Shown here: positions 19,047-50,069 of the stretch, one piece after another
How the letters are laid out: every line of letters begins with the position of its first letter
How positions within the stretch are numbered: position 1 is the first letter of the stretch
From: Fibrobacter sp.
GTDB lineage: Bacteria > Fibrobacterota > Chitinivibrionia > Chitinivibrionales > Chitinispirillaceae
Assembly (NCBI GenBank): GCA_012519985.1
Contig: JAAYPC010000018.1
Span: forward strand, 1 to 64,000
Length of the DNA: 64,000 nt
Direction of reading: 5' to 3'
Made by a program: the position numbers and the translations under genes
The notes under the pieces: generated by a model
Told to the model about the DNA's origin: nothing
The model's database searches: none
The model's input: only the letters and a program-made list of their open reading frames with translations

Positions 19047-19403
19047 ACCCTGCAGGGGCCTCGGCAGGTGCTACATCCTCATCGACCTGGTTATTCAGGA
19101 TAAAAAGCCATAGATCACGTGAGGAAATCGATTTAGTAGTTGCCAAAATCGATATCTGACCTGCCAAAAACGATTTCTGACTTACCAAAAACGATTTCTG
19201 ACTTACCAAAAACGATTTCTGACTTACCAAAAACGATTTCTGACCTGCCAAAAACGATTTCTGACCTGCCAAAAACGATTTCTGACCTACCAAAAACGAT
19301 TTCTGACTTACCAAAAACGATAGATTTCGGTAATCTTCGGATGCCTGTAGGGGATTTTTTTAAAACAAGATCATCTCATGTTTTCCCTTGTTTTACCCAG
19401 GGA
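19047..19403. other. convergent intergenic region with repeat array
   Basis: 357 bp between the ends of the 15792 gene (+) and guaA (-). Apart from the 21-bp array I see no RNA gene and no clear hairpin with a T-tract; the flanks (19047-19139 and 19328-19403) show nothing recognisable. Confidence 0.5.
19140..19327. repeat. 21-bp tandem repeat array (~9 units)
   Basis: About nine head-to-tail copies of a 21-bp unit with core CCAAAAACGATTTCTGACYT. The first copy (AAATCGATATCTG) and the last (ending ACGATAGATTTC) are degenerate; inner copies differ mainly at a TTA/CTG/CTA triplet. The array lies between the ends of two convergent genes. Because 21 is a multiple of three, both strands stay open (heptads LPKTISD on plus, KSFLVSQ on minus), but no ribosome-binding site or gene context supports translation. 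Confidence 0.9.
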
Positions 19404-38631: not shown

Positions 38632-39717
38632 TCATCCCTTTTGAACAGGCCTTCTATCTCCCCAGATATCAATAGCTACCGATCTGCCCACACTTTGAAT
38701 TCTACGGGTAAGGCATGCTTTGCACAGCTCGGCATTCTCATCAATACATGGTTTCCCTGCATAAAGCAGATACTGTTTTCTAAACTTTTCAGGTGTTATC
38801 TGCGGCATTACCACATTTGCACCAAATTTTAATCCCTGCTCTCTGCCATCGTGTTGTATTGCCTGCAGTGCGGTTGTTGCCGCGATATTTACATCCTTCA
38901 AAACCAGCCGGGTAACAGCAATCATTTTCAGAGTATTTAAAAAATTGGTTTCCAAACGGGTTTCATCTTTATAGGTAGAAAACGGAGTCTGTTCATGAAC
39001 TATGAAAGGCCCCATTCCAATCATATCAACACCAGCTTTCTTAAAGAATAGAATATCGTCTGCTAGATGCTCCAAAGACTGACCAGGTAATCCAATCATC
39101 ACCCCGGTACCAACCAGATATCCTATCTCCTTAAGAATCCGGAGGCAACTTTCACGAGAATCAAAAGACTGATTAGAAGGATGGATAAAGGAGAAAAGCT
39201 CTTTGTCAGAAGCCTCAATTCTGAGAAGATATCTGTGTGCTCCTGCATCAAAAAAATCCTGATATACTTCACGGCTCTGCTCTCCAACACAAAGTGTAAT
39301 TCCTAACCCTTGAGGAAGCCGCTCCGATCTGGTAGCCTTTTTAATACTTCTGACAGCATCAGTAACAAAATCGGTGAATTTTTTGTCCTGACGCTCTCCC
39401 GATTGAAGCACTATGGAGCCATATCCCTGTTTAGCACACCATAGTGCACACTCAACAATCTCCTCTTTTGAAATCAAATATCGTTCGACCTGACTGTTGC
39501 TCTTCCGGATTCCGCAATAATAACAATCGGATGAGCAGATATTGGAAAATTCAACCAGGCCCCTGAAATAAACATTGGGTCCACGATATCTATAGAGAAC
39601 TCTTTCAGCTTCACTACGCAGTTCTTCAATTAATTCAGGCTCTTCTATAGACAGTAAACTTATAATATCTTCTCGTGAAAATTCCTCTTTCTGAAGAATT
39701 GACGAAATAATGCTCAT
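38632..39717 (-). CDS. hydE: [FeFe]-hydrogenase H-cluster maturase HydE (radical SAM)
   Basis: 361 residues. The radical SAM motif CSSDCYYCGIR (CxxxCxxC) near residue 60 is intact and is followed by the BioB/HydE TIM-barrel signatures (LQSGERQDK, TGVMIGLPGQSLEHLADDI). HydE helps assemble the diiron subcluster of the H-cluster. The start ATG overlaps the stop of the small gene upstream (ATGA). Last gene of the maturation operon. Confidence 0.95.
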   Translation of the reverse strand: MSIISSILQKEEFSREDIISLLSIEEPELIEELRSEAERVLYRYRGPNVYFRGLVEFSNICSSDCYYCGIRKSNSQVERYLISKEEIVECALWCAKQGYGSIVLQSGERQDKKFTDFVTDAVRSIKKATRSERLPQGLGITLCVGEQSREVYQDFFDAGAHRYLLRIEASDKELFSFIHPSNQSFDSRESCLRILKEIGYLVGTGVMIGLPGQSLEHLADDILFFKKAGVDMIGMGPFIVHEQTPFSTYKDETRLETNFLNTLKMIAVTRLVLKDVNIAATTALQAIQHDGREQGLKFGANVVMPQITPEKFRKQYLLYAGKPCIDENAELCKACLTRRIQSVGRSVAIDIWGDRRPVQKG

Positions 39718-39959
39718 GCCGAATTGTCCCCCAAATCCAATAATTTTCTCTCCAGCTCCCTTTGCTTACCGACATCCAGATCATACCACCCATATACAAC
39801 TGCACCAGTATTCTGATTCAGTTGAATTCTTCTGGATGGAACGACTGCGATCTCTTTATTTGAAAAATCTCCTGAGAATCCCCATCTGCGCCCCTTTATT
39901 GCAGCAATCAGAATGGTTACACCGTAAGTTTTTTCGAGTAAACTTATTCCTTGATTCAT
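39714..39959 (-). CDS. small protein between hydG and hydE, unknown
   Basis: 81 residues, MNQGISLLEKTYGVTILIAA onward. I choose the ATG at 39959, six bases after AGGA; another ATG at 39965 abuts that site. The stop overlaps the hydE start (ATGA) and the gene follows the hydG stop by 16 bp, so it is almost certainly translated within the operon. It looks like a compact alpha/beta protein with a basic patch (AAIKGRRWGFSGDFSNKE) and a charged C-terminal helix (KQRELERKLLDL). No Cys, so no cluster ligand. I do not recognise the family. Confidence 0.75.
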   Translation of the reverse strand: MNQGISLLEKTYGVTILIAAIKGRRWGFSGDFSNKEIAVVPSRRIQLNQNTGAVVYGWYDLDVGKQRELERKLLDLGDNSA

Positions 39960-39975
39960 GATCATTCCTGCTCGT

Positions 39976-41472
39976 TTAGAAATAGATATCCCGCTCACCC
40001 CTGGCTGTCCGTTGATAATGCTCAATAAATGTAGGATAGACATCAGGCATTTTGGTTTTTATCTGTTCAATTTCACGCAGGATAATAGTTTCTCCAATCT
40101 GCTTTGTTTCAGGACTCGCAAAATCATCAAGCCATTCTCTATAGGTAATAACAGCGTTTAATTTGCAGAACTTACCTTCTGCACCGCTTCTGAGCAGATC
40201 CATTATACATTGACCGGTTCTGCCACAACGATATCCGGCAGTACAGAAAGAAGTTATATACCCCATACCTGCCAGTTCCCGTACCACTTCATCCAGACTT
40301 CTGATATCACCTAAAATGAACTGTTGTCGACTAGCAAGCTGTTCCTTAGTTGATAAATCGTTATATGCGCCCAGACCAACATTGCTGGATGCATCAGTCT
40401 GAGTAATTCCCAGGGGAATCATTTCCCTGCGAATCCTGGCATTTTCCCTGGCAGTCAATATCATTCCGGTATAAGGAACTGCTAGCCTGAGAACGACAAT
40501 CGCTTTACGGAAATCAGCATCGCTTACCTTGTACTTCAGATGGGAGACAAAGGGAGTGTTTTCTGCCGGTTCGATTCTGGGAAAAGAAATCGTATGAGGA
40601 CCGATCCCAAACTTGCTTTCCAGCTCGATTGCATGTGCAAGTAATCCCATTACCTCAAACTTCCAATCATAAAGACCCAGCAACGCTCCGATTCCCACAT
40701 CATCGATACCTGCTTCCAGAGCACGATGCATAGCATACAACCGCCACCTGAAGTTTCCTTTGAGGGTATTTGCAGGATGTACTGCTTTGTAGGTTTGTTT
40801 ATGATAAGTTTCCTGGAAAATCTGATAAGTACCTATCCCGACTTCATTAAGTGACCTGAAATCCTCAATAGACAAAGGGGCTCCATTTACATTTACCCTG
40901 CGTATTGCACCATAAGCCCCACTGGACAAGGGAACTTTGACATCATAGATGGTCCGCAGAGTATCCATCATATATTGAGTATCAGATTCAGGATGTTCTC
41001 CATAAACCACGATCAGGCGCTTATGACCGATTGTACCAGCCAGCACTTCCACTTCCTTGCGAACCTCATCCATGGAGAGAACTCCCCTGCGAATAGCCTT
41101 ATTGGTTTCTCTTAATCCGCAATAAAGGCAATTATTAACACAGGTAGTTGATAGATACAGTGGTGCAAATGTGACTATCCGGTTATCATAAACTTTCTTT
41201 TTGATAGCACCAGCAGCCTCTTCCATCTCCTGCCATAACTGTGGATCGGTGACATTGAGCAGGGTGGCGGTCTCCTGTAGAGTCAAAGTATTTATTTCCA
41301 TCGATTTGGCAATTATCTCACGCACCTTTGAGGGATCTGCCGCTAAATTGCTTTTCAGATCATTTTCGATACTTTCATCATTTAGAAACTCAGTCCCGTC
41401 ATTATTGAGATACCGGGTTATCTGGTCTTCTTTGATCTTGTTTTTCTTCCATTCCTGAATATCTACTGTCAT
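39976..41472 (-). CDS. hydG: [FeFe]-hydrogenase H-cluster maturase HydG (tyrosine lyase)
   Basis: 498 residues. Radical SAM motif CVNNCLYCGLR (CxxxCxxC) binds the SAM cluster, and the C-terminal CTAGYRCGRTGQC region carries the cysteines of the second, dangler-bearing cluster. HydG cleaves tyrosine into p-cresol, CO and cyanide for the H-cluster. ThiH-like length and motifs (GIGALLGLYDWKFEVMGLL). AGGAG precedes the ATG; the gene lies 17 bp after hydF. Confidence 0.96.
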   Translation of the reverse strand: MTVDIQEWKKNKIKEDQITRYLNNDGTEFLNDESIENDLKSNLAADPSKVREIIAKSMEINTLTLQETATLLNVTDPQLWQEMEEAAGAIKKKVYDNRIVTFAPLYLSTTCVNNCLYCGLRETNKAIRRGVLSMDEVRKEVEVLAGTIGHKRLIVVYGEHPESDTQYMMDTLRTIYDVKVPLSSGAYGAIRRVNVNGAPLSIEDFRSLNEVGIGTYQIFQETYHKQTYKAVHPANTLKGNFRWRLYAMHRALEAGIDDVGIGALLGLYDWKFEVMGLLAHAIELESKFGIGPHTISFPRIEPAENTPFVSHLKYKVSDADFRKAIVVLRLAVPYTGMILTARENARIRREMIPLGITQTDASSNVGLGAYNDLSTKEQLASRQQFILGDIRSLDEVVRELAGMGYITSFCTAGYRCGRTGQCIMDLLRSGAEGKFCKLNAVITYREWLDDFASPETKQIGETIILREIEQIKTKMPDVYPTFIEHYQRTARGERDIYF

Positions 41473-41489
41473 ATTAACACTCCTGTCTG

Positions 41490-42746
41490 TTATCTGTTTC
41501 TATGTCCGGTTTTTTCAGAATTAAAGGTTTCCAGAGCTGCAGGAAAAGGGGATAGTACCCTTTGCAGAACTCCCTGTAAAAACGAAATAGCTACTCCGTA
41601 ATTGGTTATGGCGACACCTGCCTGTATTGCTTTTTGAATCCTTACCAGCATTTCCCTGCGGGTAAGCATACATGCTCCACAGTGTATTATCAGTTTATAT
41701 TGAGAAAGATTCTCCGGATAATCTCTTCCACTGCACACATCAATCTGAAGCTCCTCACCACAATACTGTCTTAACCAGCGCGGAATCTTTACCCTTCCGA
41801 TATCATCCTCTGCCGCATGATGTGTACAGGCTTCGGCAATCAACACTTTATCACCTGTGGAAAGCGAATCGATTGCCAATGCACCTTTGACCTCTTCACA
41901 CAAATCCCCTTTGAATCGTGCAAACAAAATGGAAAATGTAGTACACGGTATCTCTATAGGTGTGTCTGCAACCATTTTCAAGACTACCTGAGAATCACAC
42001 ACCACAAGCCCGGGTGGATTCTTAAGAGATTGAAGAACAGAGCCATACTCCCTTTCTTTAACCACCAGCGTAGCAGCATCATTGTCCAGTGCATCCCTGA
42101 TCGCCTGCACCTGAGGTAAAATCAATCTTCCCTTAGGCGCCTGAAGATCAATTGGGACAACCAATACTGCAATATCTCCAGGAGAAAGCAGATCGCCTAC
42201 CAGCGAGGGTTGTCTCAATACCTCCTCAGGAACCGCCTCTATCAGTTTCTGTTTAAAATCCATGACATAGGATTGTCTGTTTGGCAAATCGACACTCGAG
42301 CAGATTATATATTTGTCGGTTTTCTCTTTGACTTTCTCCAGGAACTCCCCTGTAACAGCCATCTTGTCTGCTTTGTTAACTATCACAATCAGGGGAATTT
42401 TATGCACAGATGCCTCGGATGCGATTTTGTCCTCAAATTCGCTCCAGATCCCAGCCTCAGTAATAAGTACGCAAACTTCTGCTCTCTCAAGAGCTATATT
42501 GGTTTTGCGGATCCTGGCCTCAGAAAGTTCTGATTTGTCATCGATACCCGCAGTGTCTAAAAACATCACTGGACCCAGGGGCAACAGTTCCATGGCTTTT
42601 TCCACCACATCTGTGGTTGTTCCCGGTATCGAGGAAGTCACTGCCACATCCTGAGCTGCAATCATATTCAGGAAACTTGACTTGCCCACATTTGTGCGGC
42701 CGAAAAGGCCAATCTGTAATCGCATCGATTTAGGAGTTGTCTGCAT
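41490..42746 (-). CDS. hydF: [FeFe]-hydrogenase maturation GTPase HydF
   Basis: 418 residues. N-terminal GTPase with G1 GRTNVGKSS, G2/G3 (PGTTTD; FLDTAGIDD) and G4 NKAD. The C-terminal cluster domain has the HydF ligand pattern CTHHAAED ... HCGACM (Cys-x-His, then HCxxC). HydF is the scaffold that transfers the diiron subcluster to apo-HydA. It overlaps the end of aspA by 17 bp, so translation is probably coupled. Confidence 0.96.
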   Translation of the reverse strand: MQTTPKSMRLQIGLFGRTNVGKSSFLNMIAAQDVAVTSSIPGTTTDVVEKAMELLPLGPVMFLDTAGIDDKSELSEARIRKTNIALERAEVCVLITEAGIWSEFEDKIASEASVHKIPLIVIVNKADKMAVTGEFLEKVKEKTDKYIICSSVDLPNRQSYVMDFKQKLIEAVPEEVLRQPSLVGDLLSPGDIAVLVVPIDLQAPKGRLILPQVQAIRDALDNDAATLVVKEREYGSVLQSLKNPPGLVVCDSQVVLKMVADTPIEIPCTTFSILFARFKGDLCEEVKGALAIDSLSTGDKVLIAEACTHHAAEDDIGRVKIPRWLRQYCGEELQIDVCSGRDYPENLSQYKLIIHCGACMLTRREMLVRIQKAIQAGVAITNYGVAISFLQGVLQRVLSPFPAALETFNSEKTGHRNR

Positions 42747-44154
42747 CCTGTTCCTTTATTTCTCTTTCTATCGATTCTTTGTATCCCAAAGACATCAGTG
42801 CTGCTGGCGATAATACTTTGTTCACCAGTTGCGCACCTAACCTGTCCTCCAGAAAAGTCCTGAAATCCTTTTGGCCGTTTCTGCTAAATTCAAAAACCAG
42901 CTCTTCTGCTTTCTGATAACCTGTATATGGTAAGAAAGCAGTAATAAGAGTAGTGCTTTCAAATGCATGATTATTGCACGCCTGAGAATTAGCTTCAGTT
43001 ACCCCCACCATCATTGCCAGAGATTTGCTTGCATTGATAAGCAAATTCAGTGATTGAAGTAAAGCCATAGCAACAAGAGGCAGAAACTCGTTTATTTGAA
43101 AAGTACCACGACTGGCACAATTGGCAATCGTCGTATGGTTGGATTCTACTTGTATTCCTGCTGATATGACAGCTTCCAGGATAACAGGGTTTACTTTACC
43201 TGGCATAACCGATGACCCGGCCTGAAAAGGCGGTATCGAAATTTCCTTTAAAAAATGGAGTAATCTTAGATCGTTACACACTTTTATTAAAGTAGAACTG
43301 TACGCAGAAAGTATCCCGGAGACTTCGACAAATACATCTGCATTAGCAGTCTGAGCCATCACGTTTTCTCCTCTGGTGATTCCATATCCGCTGACCTGCC
43401 GCAGCTTTTCATTGACCAGGAATATGTATTTTCTGGGAGCAGTCAAACCGGTGCCTACCGCTGTTCCACCAATATTTACCACCCGAAGACGTTCTTCACA
43501 TTTAAAGGTACGCCAGCGGTCTCGTGCTACTGCATCTGCAAAAGATGAAAACTGTGAGCCAAGCGTAATTGGCACTGCCTCCTGAAGCTCCGTACGGCCC
43601 ACCATCAATATTGAAGCCCATTGTTTTTCTTTACGCTGGAACTCTCCCTGAAGCGAAGCGATGGCATCACTTAACAGCCTCACTCCTTCAATAGCTGCGA
43701 TCTTGAGTGCTGTCGGGTAGACATCGTTAGTAGACTGATGAAGGTTAACCTGTTCCAGAGGATGACAGCGAGAATAATCTCCTTTTTCAAAACCCATCAG
43801 TTCCAAAGCCCGGTTTGCTATCACTTCATTGATATTCATATTAGTGGAGGTACCGGCTCCGCCCTGGAGAGCATCCACAGGAAACTGATCTGCAAATTTG
43901 CCTGAAATAATCTCATCACAGGCGATACTTATCGCATCGGCCACAGCCTGGTCCAGATATCCCAGTTCCCTGTTAGTCTCGCAACAGGCTTTTTTCACCT
44001 TTGCCAGAGCCCTTACCAACTGCATCGAAACCGGTTGACCGGTAAACTTAAAATTGGCCATCGCCCTGAAAGTATGAATCCCCCAGTATGCATCCTTGGG
44101 TATTCTGGCTTCACCCAGTAAATCCGATTCGATCCGCAAATCCATTTCTTTCAT
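42730..44154 (-). CDS. aspA: aspartate ammonia-lyase (fumarase/aspartase superfamily)
   Basis: 474 residues, usual length. N-terminal RIESDLLGEARIPKDAYWGI, middle signature GGAGTSTNMNINEVI, and catalytic loop GSSVMPGKVNPVI. Converts aspartate to fumarate and ammonia. Start overlaps the regulator gene stop (ATGA), end overlaps hydF. aspA genes recur beside hyd maturase genes in several anaerobes, which suggests a link with ammonia supply for the dithiomethylamine ligand (inference). Confidence 0.92.
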   Translation of the reverse strand: MKEMDLRIESDLLGEARIPKDAYWGIHTFRAMANFKFTGQPVSMQLVRALAKVKKACCETNRELGYLDQAVADAISIACDEIISGKFADQFPVDALQGGAGTSTNMNINEVIANRALELMGFEKGDYSRCHPLEQVNLHQSTNDVYPTALKIAAIEGVRLLSDAIASLQGEFQRKEKQWASILMVGRTELQEAVPITLGSQFSSFADAVARDRWRTFKCEERLRVVNIGGTAVGTGLTAPRKYIFLVNEKLRQVSGYGITRGENVMAQTANADVFVEVSGILSAYSSTLIKVCNDLRLLHFLKEISIPPFQAGSSVMPGKVNPVILEAVISAGIQVESNHTTIANCASRGTFQINEFLPLVAMALLQSLNLLINASKSLAMMVGVTEANSQACNNHAFESTTLITAFLPYTGYQKAEELVFEFSRNGQKDFRTFLEDRLGAQLVNKVLSPAALMSLGYKESIEREIKEQDADNS

Positions 44155-44402
44155 TTTCCCTTGCTCAAGGCAGATTTGACAGTCACTCCCTTAATCATTC
44201 CCAGTCGTCCGGTTAATACTCCCAGCTCATCTGTGGTCATATCAACCACCAGTGTAATGACACAGCAGTTTTTTTTCTGATAAGGAATACCGGTTCTGGC
44301 AATGATGGAATCACCAAATTCAGATAATGTCTTGTTTACTATTTCTGCGCTTGCTTTGCGGTTTTCCAGAATAATACCTATAAAGCCCAGTCTTTTTTCC
44401 AT
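44151..44402 (-). CDS. TM1266-type iron-only hydrogenase system regulator (ACT-like)
   Basis: 83 residues with an ACT/NikR-C-like fold pattern: MEKRLGFIGIILENRKASAE at the start and a metal-binding-like middle (KKNCCVITLVVDMTTDELG). This family is found in hydrogenase operons and annotated as a putative regulator; its action is not established. First gene of the maturation operon, with AAGGAG 6 nt before the ATG. Confidence 0.88.
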   Translation of the reverse strand: MEKRLGFIGIILENRKASAEIVNKTLSEFGDSIIARTGIPYQKKNCCVITLVVDMTTDELGVLTGRLGMIKGVTVKSALSKGK

Positions 44403-44531
44403 ATAACTCCTTCAGGAAAACTCAAAGTCCTTCCTAAATCTAAAAATCTTAAACCTGAAATCTTAAATCTAAAATCTCTTGCCCCGGAGGTAACAAGTTT
44501 ATGCATTGAGAAATCATCTCTGGGGTAAAAT

Positions 44532-44572
44532 AAAAAAGCCACTTCCAGGCAAAATCTGCCTGAAAATGGCCT
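44532..44572 (-). terminator. terminator-like hairpin in leader of the maturation operon
   Basis: Minus-strand hairpin: GCCATTTTCAGGCA / TGCCTGGAAGTGGC arms with two mismatches and a 5-nt loop, followed by TTTTTTA. It is 130 bp before the TM1266-type ATG and downstream of another structured segment, so it may attenuate this operon. It may alternatively end transcription coming from the repeat array. Confidence 0.6.
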
Positions 44573-44584
44573 TATTATTATCCA

Positions 44585-44672
44585 CATTAAAATTTTTCAT
44601 ACCTCTCCCTTGAGTTCAGAGCATCTGATACCCCTTGCCGCAGGATAGCCGTTCGAACCAAGTCCGGTTCTG
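44585..44672 (-). ncRNA. candidate structured 5' leader (possible riboswitch/attenuator)
   Basis: On the minus strand, a GAACC/GGTTC hairpin (44655-44670) is followed by TATCC/GGGTA and CTCT/AGAG pairings, then AAGGGAGAGG with an ATG (28-codon possible leader peptide MKNFNVDNNKAIFRQILPGS...) and then the terminator-like hairpin. I cannot match it to a known riboswitch class. The call rests on position and pairing only. Confidence 0.3.
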
Positions 44673-44840
44673 CTTTTTATCAGTTTGTCATAAATATACA
44701 TCAAAGTATGATATTTAAAAAGCCTGGATGATTGCCCAAATAAAAACCCCAACAGAGGACTTTAAAATCCCTATGCCACGATTTTCTTTCACTTTCTCCA
44801 GCCATTGAAGCTGCGAGATGAAGACATTGATAGAAACAGG

Positions 44841-45182
44841 CGAATTACGCAATATATCGGTCATCTTAGGATTTCAGAACAGCGAATTACCGCAATATAT
44901 CGGTCATCTTAAGATTTCAGAACAACGAATTACCGCAATATAACGGTCACTCTGAGACTTCAGAAAAGTGAATTTGCGCAATATAACGGTCACCCTAAGA
45001 TTTCCGAAAAGCGAATTTCAGCGTATATCGGTCAACCCAAGATTTCCAAACAACGAATTTACGCGTATATCGGTCAACCCAGGATTTCAAAACAGCGAAT
45101 TTACGCGTATAACGGTCACCCTAAGTGTTTAGAATAGCAATGTTAAGCGTTATATTGGTCACCTGAAATGTTTAAAACAGCA
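44841..45182. repeat. 42/43-bp tandem repeat array, sub-family A (8 units)
   Basis: Eight degenerate units of 42-43 bp beginning GAATTxxCGC (starts near 44842, 44884, 44927, 44970, 45013, 45055, 45097, 45139) and sharing the core ATATCGGTCA. Copies diverge progressively along the array. It runs without a gap into sub-family B, which has the same period and the same GAATTACGCGT start. Confidence 0.85.
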
Positions 45183-45518
45183 AAGTCGCGCGTGAAAACG
45201 CACTTCTAAAGTATGTGGTTGACCGAATTACGCATGAAAACGCACTTCTAAAGTGTGTGGTTGACCGAATTACGCATGAAAACGCACTTCTAAAGTGTGT
45301 GGTTGACCGAATTACGCGTGAAAACGCACTTCTAAAGTGTGTGGTTGACCGAATTACGCGTGAAAACGCACTTCTAAAGTGTGTGGTTGACCGCAATACG
45401 CGTGAGAACGCACTTCTAAAGTGTGTGATTGACCGCAATACGCGTGAGAACGCACTTCTAAAGTGTGTGGTTGACCGAATTACGCGTGAAATTGTACCCC
45501 TAAAGTGTTTTGTTGACC
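45183..45518. repeat. 42-bp tandem repeat array, sub-family B (8 units)
   Basis: Eight units of exactly 42 bp, six of them nearly identical (GAATTACGCGTGAAAACGCA then CTTCTAAAGTGTGTGGTTGA and CC). Each unit holds two small inverted repeats: GCGT-GAAA-ACGC and CACTT-CTA-AAGTG. The period is a multiple of three, so both strands stay open across it (plus strand 14-mer VVDRITHENALLKC), but there is no ribosome-binding site or conservation evidence for a protein. Confidence 0.92.
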
Positions 45519-45646
45519 GCAAAAAGGGAGGTAGTGGAATAAGGTGTGTTGAAATCCAATCGCACAGGGCGTTGTCCTGTGCTAAAATAGAGCGCCCCTT
45601 CAGGACTGGATCGGATGACCTCCTCTGGAAGGATTTGAGACACAAA

Positions 45647-45688
45647 TAAAAAAGCCGCTTTTCAGGAACAATTACCTGAAAAGCGGCT
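45647..45688 (-). terminator. terminator of the hydrogenase operon
   Basis: Perfect 14-bp inverted repeat AGCCGCTTTTCAGG / CCTGAAAAGCGGCT with an 8-nt loop, followed on the minus strand by TTTTTT, 50 bp after the hydA stop. Confidence 0.92.
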
Positions 45689-45737
45689 AAAGAAACATTC
45701 CTAAATCTGCAGTGCTGAATATCAGCAATTGCAGATT

Positions 45738-47483
45738 TTATTTCTGGTACTCCGGACGCTCAATGTAGGTTGTGTGGAGCAAGTGATGTGCTTTCTCACT
45801 GTGCGGCTCTCCGAGAAATTCATCATAGAGTTTCTTAACAAATGGATTCTCATGAGAATATCGCAGTGTACAGGCTTCGTCTTCACCATAGAGACCCTGA
45901 GAACGAGCCATTCTGATCTCATCGGTTACTCCATAGGGTTGACCACCACCACCGATACAACCACCAGGACAGGCCATAACTTCAATGAAATGATAAGGAA
46001 GTTCTTTGCCCTCCTGTTTTGCCTCTCTTACTTTATTGAGTACGAATTCCACATTTTTAAGCCCATGAGCTACAGCAACCTTCACAGTGATATCACCCAC
46101 CATGACAGTTCCTTCTTTCACTCCGTCGAGTCCGCGAACATTCTCGAACTCCACGTTTTTAAGTTTTCCACCTGTTACATAGTCATAAGCCGTGCGAAGT
46201 GCAGCCTCCATCACTCCACCAGTAACACCGAAGATGGTAGCAGCACCGCTGTACTCACCCAGAATGTGATCCGGTTCTTCTTCGGGAAGATTGACAAAAT
46301 CAATACCGGCCTGCTTGATCATACGAGCCAGCTCACGGGTAGTGATCGAGATATCAATATCCTGATGTCCCGATGCATACATTTCTTTGGAGCGAATGAT
46401 CTCATACTTTTTAGCAGTGCAGGGCATAATTGAAACCATACACATCTTGCCAGCATCGAGTCTGCGTTTTTGTGCATAGTAGGTTTTAGTAAGTGCTCCA
46501 ACCATTGCCTGCGGAGATTTACAGGTAGAAAAGTTGTCTTTAAAGTCACTGTGGTATTTTTCCATAAAATCTACCCATGCCGGGCAGCAACTGGTAATCA
46601 GGGGAAGCATCTCAGGTGCCTGGGTAAACCGGTTCACAAACTCTGTGGCTTCCTCGACGATCGTAAGGTCTGCACCGAAATTGGTATCAAAAACCGCCTT
46701 AAAACCCATTCTTCTGAGAGCTGCATAGATTTTACCGGTGAGATTTGTTCCTGGAGCATAACCGAATGCTTCACCTAAAGCAACCCTTACAGCAGGTGCA
46801 ATCTGAACTGCACAGTAGGTATCAGGATCCTGCAAGGCCTGCCATACCTTCTGAGTCTCATCATTTTCAAAAATTGCACCTGTTGGACAATGAGCAGAAC
46901 ACTGCCCACAACGCACACAGGGAGATTCAGAGAGCGTAATATCACCTGCAGGAGAGATTCTGGTTTCAAAGCCCCGATCCAGAAATGAAAGAGCCCATAC
47001 ATTTTGATTCTGCTGACAGACTGTAACACATCTGCCGCAAGAAACGCATTTGCGGGGTTCCAGGACAATAGTGCCGGTAGAGCGGTCAGCCGCAAGATCG
47101 GGCACCACTTCAGGGAAAGATTCCCGTGTAATTCCAAAATCTGAAGCCAGAGCCTGAAGCTCACAGGTACCGTTTCTGCCGCAGGTCAAACACTCATTTG
47201 GATGTTTGGAAAGGATCAACTCGATTACCGTGCGCCTGACATCGACTATCTCCGGATCATGGGTGGTAATTTCCATGTTTTCTTCAATAGGAGTACAGCA
47301 GGCCCGCAGCATTTTATTGGACCCTTTGACCTTTACTATACAAATACCGCAGGAAGCGGTGGGAGGCAGATCCGGATGCTTACAAAGTGTAGGTATTTTA
47401 ACCTGTACTTTTTCGGCAGCCTCCAGAATGGTCGTACCTTCGGAGACACTTACAGAAATTCCGTTTATTTTTGCCTTTATCAT
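45738..47483 (-). CDS. hydA: [FeFe]-hydrogenase catalytic subunit HydA/HndD
   Basis: 581 residues. N-terminal [2Fe-2S] plant-type ferredoxin domain (CGICIVKVKGSNKMLRAC), a His-ligated 4Fe-4S site (HPNECLTCGRNGTC), two 4Fe-4S ferredoxin motifs (CVSCGRCVTVC, CVRCGQCSAHC), then the H-cluster domain with the three motifs TSCCPAW, MPCTAKKYE and MACPGGCIGGGGQP. Catalyses reversible H2 formation. With the co-encoded NuoF/NuoE-like subunits it should form a multimeric NAD(P)- and ferredoxin-linked (bifurcating) hydrogenase. 5 bp after the hydB stop. Confidence 0.96.
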   Translation of the reverse strand: MIKAKINGISVSVSEGTTILEAAEKVQVKIPTLCKHPDLPPTASCGICIVKVKGSNKMLRACCTPIEENMEITTHDPEIVDVRRTVIELILSKHPNECLTCGRNGTCELQALASDFGITRESFPEVVPDLAADRSTGTIVLEPRKCVSCGRCVTVCQQNQNVWALSFLDRGFETRISPAGDITLSESPCVRCGQCSAHCPTGAIFENDETQKVWQALQDPDTYCAVQIAPAVRVALGEAFGYAPGTNLTGKIYAALRRMGFKAVFDTNFGADLTIVEEATEFVNRFTQAPEMLPLITSCCPAWVDFMEKYHSDFKDNFSTCKSPQAMVGALTKTYYAQKRRLDAGKMCMVSIMPCTAKKYEIIRSKEMYASGHQDIDISITTRELARMIKQAGIDFVNLPEEEPDHILGEYSGAATIFGVTGGVMEAALRTAYDYVTGGKLKNVEFENVRGLDGVKEGTVMVGDITVKVAVAHGLKNVEFVLNKVREAKQEGKELPYHFIEVMACPGGCIGGGGQPYGVTDEIRMARSQGLYGEDEACTLRYSHENPFVKKLYDEFLGEPHSEKAHHLLHTTYIERPEYQK

Positions 47484-47488
47484 AATGT

Positions 47489-49228
47489 TTATACCCTCGC
47501 TATCGCTTCAAATTTGCATACATCAAAACATCTTCCGCATTTGATGCACTTGGCCTGATCTATGGTATAACCAATTTGCCGATCACCAGTTATCGCGGAG
47601 ACAGGACAGTTTTTCATACACAGGCTGCATTTTTTACACTTCTCAGCAATCACCTCATATTGTGCTAATTTGGTGCATTTACCGGCCCGGCATTTCTTTT
47701 CATTCACATGCTGCAGATATTCTTCTTCGAAATATCTTAATGTAGACAAAACCGGATTAGGAGCGGTCTGCCCTAAAGCACAAAGAGAAGCCTTCTGCAT
47801 TCCCTGAGCAATGCGGCGCAAACTGGAGATATCATCCATCTCTGCTATTCCATCGGTTATTTTTTCCAGAATTGAAAGCATCTGATAACCACCGATTCGG
47901 CAGGGAGCGCATTTTCCACAGGATTCATCGACACAGAATTTCAGGTAGAATTTGGAGATATCGACCAGACAGTCGTCCTCATCCATTACAATCATTCCAC
48001 CTGAACCCATAATCGAACCCAGTTCCATAAGATGCTCATAGCTTACCGGAGTATCCATATACTTCTCAGGAATAACGCCTCCGGAAGGCCCTCCGGTCTG
48101 AACAGCAACCAGTTTTTTACCTCCTGCAATCCCGCCACTGATACCAAATACAATCTCCCTTATCGGGGTACCCATAGCGATCTCTACAAGTCCTGAATTA
48201 GCCACCTTACCGGTAACCGCAAAAACCTTGGTTCCTTTGGATTTTTCGGTTCCAATGGATGAAAACCATTCAGAACCTCTCTGAAAGATTGCCGCTATAT
48301 TAGCCAGAGTTTCGACATTGTTAATAATGGTAGGTTTATCCCAAAGTCCACGATCCGATGGGAAAGGAGGACGGGGACGTGGAGTACCGCGTTTGCCTTC
48401 AATGGATGCTAGCAGAGCGGTCTCTTCACCACAAACAAAAGCACCTGCACCCAGTCGGATTTCCAGATCAAAATTAAAAGATGAACCGAGGATGGAGTTG
48501 CCAAGAAGGCCTCTTTGGTAAGCCTGCTTCAAGGCTTTCTCCACTCTTTCAATAGCCAGCGGATATTCGGCGCGGATATAGAGAAAACCTTTACTTGCCC
48601 CTATAGCATAGCCGGCAATGATCATTCCTTCAATAACAGAATGCGGGTCCCCTTCCAGAACACTTCGATCCATGTAAGCCCCCGGATCCCCTTCATCGGC
48701 ATTACAGACCACATATTTTTCGGTTCCAAAAGAGTTTCTTGCCAGATTCCATTTTAACCAGGTAGGAAATCCTGCTCCCCCTCTTCCCCTGAGGCCGCTT
48801 TTTTTCAACTCATCGATGACCTGCTCGGGTTTAAAGTCAAGCAGGCACTTTGCAAGCGAAACATAACCGCTATGACCGATGTAATCATCGATGCTTTCGG
48901 GATCAACGATACCGCAGTTACGCAGGACGATTCTGGTTTGTATATACTCATTACGGTACAGAAGATCCTCAATGGGAGTTCCCTGTTTTACAGTTACATT
49001 GAGAATCTGTTCGATTTGATCCGGCTGAACATTTGCATAAACAATGTCCAGCGGAATAATCTTTACCACCACACCTCTATTGTAAACACCCAGATCTGCA
49101 GCCCGCACCACCTGAACATCATTTTCTATCCCCAGATCCCGTGCGGCTTTAATGAATTGGGACTGGTAATCTCTGGTAACATCACTGCTCAGTCCGGTGT
49201 CTTTAATCAGAATAACAGTTTTACTCAT
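47489..49228 (-). CDS. hydB: hydrogenase NADH/flavin subunit HydB/HndC (NuoF-like)
   Basis: 579 residues from the ATG at 49228, which has AGGAGG upstream; the frame extends to 49366 but that would overlap the previous gene by 131 bp. N-terminal thioredoxin-like 2Fe-2S-type region lacking a full set of Cys, the NuoF FMN/NADH-binding motifs (GLRGRGGAGFPTWLKW; CNADEGDPGAYMDR; GAGAFVCGEETALLASIEG), a NuoF 4Fe-4S site (ESCGKCAPCRIGG), and C-terminal 2x[4Fe-4S] (CKKCSLCMKNCP; CIKCGRCFDVC). It takes electrons to or from NAD(H). Confidence 0.94.
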   Translation of the reverse strand: MSKTVILIKDTGLSSDVTRDYQSQFIKAARDLGIENDVQVVRAADLGVYNRGVVVKIIPLDIVYANVQPDQIEQILNVTVKQGTPIEDLLYRNEYIQTRIVLRNCGIVDPESIDDYIGHSGYVSLAKCLLDFKPEQVIDELKKSGLRGRGGAGFPTWLKWNLARNSFGTEKYVVCNADEGDPGAYMDRSVLEGDPHSVIEGMIIAGYAIGASKGFLYIRAEYPLAIERVEKALKQAYQRGLLGNSILGSSFNFDLEIRLGAGAFVCGEETALLASIEGKRGTPRPRPPFPSDRGLWDKPTIINNVETLANIAAIFQRGSEWFSSIGTEKSKGTKVFAVTGKVANSGLVEIAMGTPIREIVFGISGGIAGGKKLVAVQTGGPSGGVIPEKYMDTPVSYEHLMELGSIMGSGGMIVMDEDDCLVDISKFYLKFCVDESCGKCAPCRIGGYQMLSILEKITDGIAEMDDISSLRRIAQGMQKASLCALGQTAPNPVLSTLRYFEEEYLQHVNEKKCRAGKCTKLAQYEVIAEKCKKCSLCMKNCPVSAITGDRQIGYTIDQAKCIKCGRCFDVCKFEAIARV

Positions 49229-49235
49229 AATGTAC

Positions 49236-49586
49236 TTACCTCCTGACCGGCAGATCAAAAATATGGTCGTTAACCAGGCGTTTCCCGCAGACATGCTCTT
49301 CCATGATGCGCAAAGCAGTCTCAGAATTAACCATTCCATAGGTAACCACAGGAAGCCCCTCCACATATACCTCTATCAATGGTTCAGCGTAACACATCCC
49401 CACACAACCGGTCCTTTTAAGCTCAATCTGCACATCCCTGCGTTTGATCTCTTTGGCAAGCGTATCAAAAACATCCTGAGCCCCAGCAGCAATACCACAA
49501 GTACTCATGCCTACCTTAATATAGGGCTGTACTGGGGGATTTGCCGATGCAGCCGCCTGCAGATCTTCTTTAGTCATTTTTCTCAT
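49236..49586 (-). CDS. thioredoxin-like [2Fe-2S] protein, HndB family
   Basis: 116 residues. Cys pattern of the thioredoxin-like [2Fe-2S] fold: MSTCGIAAGA at the first pair and RTGCVGMCYAEP at the second. Homologous to HndB of NADP-reducing hydrogenases. Probably an electron-transfer subunit between the NuoE- and NuoF-like subunits. It lies 7 bp before hydB and 6 bp after the NuoE-like gene. Confidence 0.9.
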   Translation of the reverse strand: MRKMTKEDLQAAASANPPVQPYIKVGMSTCGIAAGAQDVFDTLAKEIKRRDVQIELKRTGCVGMCYAEPLIEVYVEGLPVVTYGMVNSETALRIMEEHVCGKRLVNDHIFDLPVRR

Positions 49587-49592
49587 AGTTTC

Positions 49593-50069
49593 TCATCCCT
49601 CTTTCTTGTATTTAGAAAGAATTGTTGCTACCTCTTCTCTTTTTACTTTTCCATGGATTTCCCCATTGACCATCATCACAGGAGCTAATCCGCAACAACC
49701 CAGACATCTCACCACATCCAGATGAAAAAGGCCATCAGAGGTGGTCTGGCCCTCTTTAACATTAAGCATCGATTTAACCTCTTCTACCAGCTCCGGTGCC
49801 CCTTTGAGATAGCAGGCAGTACCCAAACAGATAGAGATGTTATACTTTCCAGGCGGATCGAGTTTAAAGTAGTTATAGAAAGTAATCACCTCATAGATCC
49901 TGGCCATAGGGATATCCAGGAGTTTGGAGAGTTTCAGGGAGACATCACGAGGTACATAGCCATACTGATTCTGGATTTCATGGAGAATCATTATAAGGCT
50001 ACCCTTTTTTTCACGCCACTTTTCGGCTAAAGCGGCAATATCTTGAGTGGCCGAACCATTCTGCACCAT
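49593..50069 (-). CDS. hydC: NuoE-like hydrogenase subunit HydC/HndA
   Basis: 158 residues. NuoE/24-kDa family: helical start (SLIMILHEIQNQYGYVPRDV) and thioredoxin-like domain with 2Fe-2S ligands CLGTACYLKGA and VRCLGCCGLAP. First gene of the hydC-hndB-hydB-hydA operon; AGGGG lies nine bases before the ATG. The upstream region carries a promoter overlapped by a Rex operator. Confidence 0.93.
   Translation of the reverse strand: MVQNGSATQDIAALAEKWREKKGSLIMILHEIQNQYGYVPRDVSLKLSKLLDIPMARIYEVITFYNYFKLDPPGKYNISICLGTACYLKGAPELVEEVKSMLNVKEGQTTSDGLFHLDVVRCLGCCGLAPVMMVNGEIHGKVKREEVATILSKYKKEG

Follow-up and report, generated by a model that had tools for sequence, protein, structure and literature searches.

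A 42-bp tandem array between two hydrogenase operons is probably one copy of a dispersed, lineage-private minisatellite

Does a striking tandem array that lies between two hydrogenase operons take part in their control? The array stands in the window, by which we mean the whole 64,000-nucleotide stretch of Fibrobacter sp. DNA analyzed here. The original prediction had described it as a 16-unit, 42-bp array upstream of the hydrogenase maturation operon, and had offered three identities for it: a transcribed RNA array, a protein-binding platform or a mini-satellite. Our analysis supports the last of these. With a probability of about 0.78, the array belongs to a dispersed intergenic minisatellite private to this lineage (satellite DNA of the VNTR type), of which it is one copy, and it is probably without selected function. 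It has the look of ordinary repeat DNA that came to lie between the two hydrogenase operons, and not of a component of hydrogenase control, a reading that guards so striking an array from being taken as hydrogenase regulation.

NCBIfam assignments confirmed the predicted site, with an [FeFe]-hydrogenase operon on one side and the hydF/G/E maturation operon on the other: they identify a group A6 [FeFe]-hydrogenase at 45738-47483, as well as HydF, HydG, HydE and the TM1266 regulator. The array falls between the terminator of the hydrogenase operon and the leader of the maturation operon, with its neighboring genes ~220 and ~440 bp away. The features of the locus are:

38632..44402, minus strand, operon of the TM1266 regulator, aspartase, hydF, hydG and hydE
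39714-40043, 109-aa unnamed ORF inside this operon region
44535..44573, minus strand, intrinsic terminator after the leader
44599..44654, minus strand, candidate leader RNA, conserved and covarying, of the TM1266-aspartase-hydF-hydG-hydE operon
45653..45688, minus strand, intrinsic terminator of the hydrogenase operon
45738..50069, minus strand, group A6 [FeFe]-hydrogenase operon (hydA, NuoF-like, NuoE-like)

The gap between hydA and TM1266 measures 1335 bp here, compared to 305, 315, 172 and 189 bp in four relatives (G002, G008, G014 and G006, respectively). Since the syntenic gap in these relatives is far shorter, the array lies in extra sequence, and we did not find it at the syntenic hydA-TM1266 site in relatives.

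Segmentation with a cyclic profile divided 44842-45519 into 16 head-to-tail units of 42-43 bp, while TRF reported the array in three rows that overlap one another. The array's TRF score of 543 compares with a best score of 50 among 200 dinucleotide shuffles of 44403-45737, and TRF, segmentation and shuffles together bear out the predicted 16-unit, 42-bp structure:

44842..45182, plus strand, A block, units #1-#8 of 42-43 bp, neighbor identity 76-88%
45183..45476, plus strand, B block, units #9-#15 of 42 bp, neighbor identity 85-100%
45477..45519, plus strand, degenerate unit #16, 73% identical to #15
44835-45125, TRF row 1, period 43
44982-45183, TRF row 2, period 42
45189-45519, TRF row 3, period 42, 93% matches, score 543

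Both the unit entry GAATTACGC(G/A)T and the two small inverted repeats ascribed to the B units are present in the sequence. From unit #1 to unit #8, neighbor identities within the A block run 86, 79, 83, 79, 88, 76 and 76%; identity falls to 49% at the switch from A to B, then runs 85, 100, 98, 100, 90 and 98%, ending at 73%. The proposed gradient from old A units to young B units is therefore real in these values, but not as growth at one end: since unit #16 is only 73% identical to #15, growth would have occurred near the right end and not at it. The B block reads as a locally homogenized young zone, inside the array near its right side. The A block, for its part, is not simply old, as it holds recent local duplications too, with neighbor identity of up to 88% in the window, 95% in the C171 array and 98% in the C321 array.

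What we say of this 42-bp family genome-wide rests on searches with the array unit. The array matched eight places in its own genome (E 0 to 1.9e-8), and an 84-bp, two-unit, sequence-only model (R1) gave 80 matches there, which brought in C254 with its short array. Contig C171 at its end and contig C353 at its start lie inside arrays in opposite orientations, and since the identical unit variant occurs at both contig ends, these are probably one array broken by assembly. Counted in this way, the genome holds about seven arrays: that of the window, one internal to C171, the C171/C353 array, and those on C321, C117, C179 and C254. Their sizes range from about 4 units (about 4 on C254) to 22, so unit number differs between loci, and all are intergenic by ORF lists. 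The family accounts for at least three contig ends of the assembly and could serve as a strain-typing (VNTR) marker.

The genome-wide unit search, which the original prediction had called for, thus shows that the array is not special to the hyd locus. Named by eye, the genes beside the other arrays include a GH53-like glycosidase with a tRNA, an esterase-like gene, ABC transporter and GH43-like genes, an endonuclease/exonuclease-like gene and response regulators. Because the 42-bp family also stands beside such unrelated genes, it is no hyd-specific feature; together with the syntenic site that lacks an array in relatives, this speaks against the hydrogenase link that the prediction had implied. 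A second [FeFe]-hydrogenase gene lies ~3 kb from the C171 array, a proximity that counts somewhat for a link of the arrays to hydrogenase loci; no other hydrogenase pointer besides C171 appeared among the array neighbors in the ORF lists, with names assigned by eye.

Outside its own genome, the array had no BLAST match at E<=0.001 in 60 relatives. Run against 40 relatives, model R1 returned nothing but weak matches (best E 0.002), and we took these (E 0.002-0.09) as chance. One exact A core pattern was absent from 84,980 species genomes, A and B core patterns were absent from IMG/VR viral contigs, and DNA comparison of the array with phages and plasmids gave no match. Our use of "private" is at the level of the genus and covers the material searched, which contained no other genome of that genus. 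A literature search for similar repeats in Fibrobacterota returned nothing useful.

The arrays share more than their unit. Unit #1 of the window is 98% identical to C171a #1, unit #2 is 100% identical to C171a #4, and units #7 and #8 are 93% identical to C171a #7 and #8; likewise, C321 #22 matches C171a #12 at 92% and C171b #1 matches C171a #5 at 100%. Same-position units across arrays are often closer than neighbors inside one array. Most B units of the window show the reverse pattern, with 98-100% identity to another unit of the same array and <=95% to any unit of another array. In each of the well-preserved copies, a B-type zone near the right side is homogenized per locus, with degenerate units on either side. 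The flanks are partly shared as well, the right flank being common to C171, C321 and C353:

44777..44850, plus strand, left flank and first array bases, end of a duplicated block common to the C171 array (91% over 74 bp between window and C171)
45521..45547, plus strand, right flank, matching the right flank of the C171 array (93% over 27 bp)

The common unit order and the partly shared flanks show that the arrays spread as blocks, and the B units were homogenized locus by locus after block copying. As for mechanism, the blocks would have been copied between loci by segmental duplication or recombination, and units may have multiplied via replication slippage or unequal crossing-over. Block-wise copying followed by local homogenization is the usual mark of minisatellites, and under this reading the array would have no sequence-specific function at the hydrogenase locus. 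We also considered the left flank as a gene fragment and found no Pfam match. Separately, an inverted repeat, GGGAGGTATTGGAATAAGG...TTATTCCATTCTACCTCCC, adjoins the C171 array (L009 1076-1138), and only one of its arms is kept beside the window array (45521-45547).

Among known repeat systems, the MIRUs of Mycobacterium come close: they too consist of 40-100 bp units in tandem, spread over many intergenic loci within a genome, with units related between loci and copy number that changes locally. Unlike MIRUs, the array units carry no small ORF overlapping neighboring start or stop codons, the 43-bp A units shifting the frame, and here whole array blocks with a shared unit order are copied between loci. 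CRISPR arrays and the cyanobacterial 37-bp LTRR repeats are likewise regular direct repeats of similar length, but the units described here abut head to tail, with no unique spacers between repeats. REP or BIME elements are also short, dispersed and intergenic, whereas our array has a tandem 42-bp period and lacks a conserved palindrome or compensatory changes.

The 42-bp family has company in this genome. A second minisatellite in the window, at 19143-19321, comprises 8.5 copies of a 21-bp unit, CCAAAAACGATTTCTGACCTA; its family occupies 11 loci in the genome, several at contig ends, and at E 0.001 we found it in none of 23 further genomes from the same taxonomic family. The 21-bp family thus behaves as the 42-bp family does, and since it is dispersed and private like the latter, the genome is prone to such arrays. 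We noted in addition that G008, a relative from a different genus, carries a 43-bp array of its own, whose half-period is 21 bp (L166 550-820; AACCCTCTAAGGTAGGCAAAAATCGTTTTAAGGTAGGGGTATG). By eye, this array resembles the 21-bp unit of the window (shared AAATCGTTTT), a possible homology.

Could the repeated unit instead be a binding site? In such a platform, each unit would hold sites for a dimeric DNA-binding protein on one helix face, loaded repeatedly, the candidate dyads being TACGCGTA and TTCTAA-N4-TTAGAA, about 21 bp apart. Model R1 finds matches on the opposite strand too (best E 2.7e-7), and the C179 and C321 arrays contain perfect TTCTAA-N4-TTAGAA sites. Compared with its reverse complement, the C179 consensus agrees at 30 of 42 positions (permutation p 0.001, uncorrected for the ten tests made). 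Unit lengths near two and four helical turns could also hint at a bound protein. Self-symmetry nonetheless fails to reach significance in the consensus of all units pooled (p 0.10) and in the A and B consensus of the window (p 0.63 and p 0.07, respectively), the best-preserved window units do not keep the dyad, and we identified no cognate protein. Beyond this weak dyad symmetry the platform gained no positive support, and we consider it unlikely. Broader, and more doubtful still, is the idea that the 42-bp family and the 21-bp family, which looks unrelated to it, are two versions of one helically phased array (four and two turns per unit), coated by a lineage-specific DNA-binding protein and insulating or organizing the chromosome at scattered intergenic sites. 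The flanks raise a different possibility, that the array is carried along by a transposable element: loci have left (about 70 bp) and right flanks in common, copying is block-wise and an inverted repeat adjoins the C171 copy. Against this, no gene resembling a transposase was conspicuous in the flanks of the arrays as read, and the copies end at different places; we regard such a carrier as very unlikely.

A transcribed RNA array with repeated small hairpins (a GNRA tetraloop and CACUU-CUA-AAGUG) would account for both inverted repeats in the B units, and the plus strand of the B block has a somewhat more stable fold than shuffled sequence (z -2.5). The A units, however, have no hairpins, and 33 two-unit sequences gave no consensus structure. 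Five arrays together supplied 28 B-type units, in which the share of paired cells was 78.6% for hairpin 1 (75.4% expected) and 92.1% for hairpin 2 (92.0% expected), and double changes are not in excess in either. Promoter-like sites occur at chance (2 found, 2.6 expected), and an Rfam scan of the region placed no known RNA inside the array. With no consensus fold and no compensatory changes beyond shuffles, the RNA proposal is highly improbable. Least credible is a coding role, as a protein with a 14-residue repeat, which would draw on a period divisible by three and on two ORFs that keep both strands open across the B block:

45215-45649, plus strand, ORF across B
45172-45645, minus strand, ORF across B

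That both strands are equally open is expectable from a 42-bp period, while the 43-bp A units break the frame, other arrays have no long ORF spanning them, and all Pfam matches fall below curated cut-offs, as expected of low-complexity repeats.

While comparing the syntenic gaps of relatives, we spotted a candidate more promising than the array and outside its coordinates. A conserved stretch before TM1266, beside the array, reads CCTGCGGYRAGGGG-hairpin-CTGAAC-CAAGGGG followed by an intrinsic terminator (44654-44535, minus strand). Its hairpin covaries and is framed by invariant CCTG(C)GG and AAGGG motifs, and the candidate leader occupies the same place in nine relatives. We built a model (R2) from ten genomes, in which the hairpin shows compensatory changes, and re-scored covariation after adding four later matches. 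The leader scores 0.271; shuffles score 0.140 (sd 0.027), and not one of the 500 attained the observed value. The alignment was fitted to the structure and so leans towards it. R2 then matched upstream of TM1266, again with a terminator, in G041 (L209; E 2.8e-11), a genome outside its training set, and in an Omnitrophota contig it matched in the stretch from hydA to TM1266 (L097 5338-5389; E 3.9e-6). Weaker matches lie directly upstream of hydG, with HydG named by eye, in G039 and G037 (L211 and L212; E 4e-5 and 5e-4). Strong matches number one per genome. The leader has no matching family in Rfam 15, and we found nothing relevant in the literature on a riboswitch or RNA motif of hydrogenase maturation. 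Together, leader and terminator form a candidate cis-regulatory RNA before genes for the maturation of [FeFe]-hydrogenase, present in several genera of the phylum as well as in a single Omnitrophota genome.

One further repeat adjoins the array. This Acido-Lenti-1-like element is a neighbor of the array and not a part of it; the genome holds 26 elements of this Rfam family (RF01687), 14 of them above the gathering score:

45563..45607, plus strand, Acido-Lenti-1-like dispersed element (RF01687), 28 bits, below the gathering score of 37
C179 478-574, Acido-Lenti-1 element

On C134 (L091), six of the elements lie between glycosyltransferase-like genes, all on the same strand; as a whole, the elements resemble a dispersed REP-like element (CACAGGGCGTTGCCCTGTGCTAA...GGCGCCCTTTCAGGGCT).
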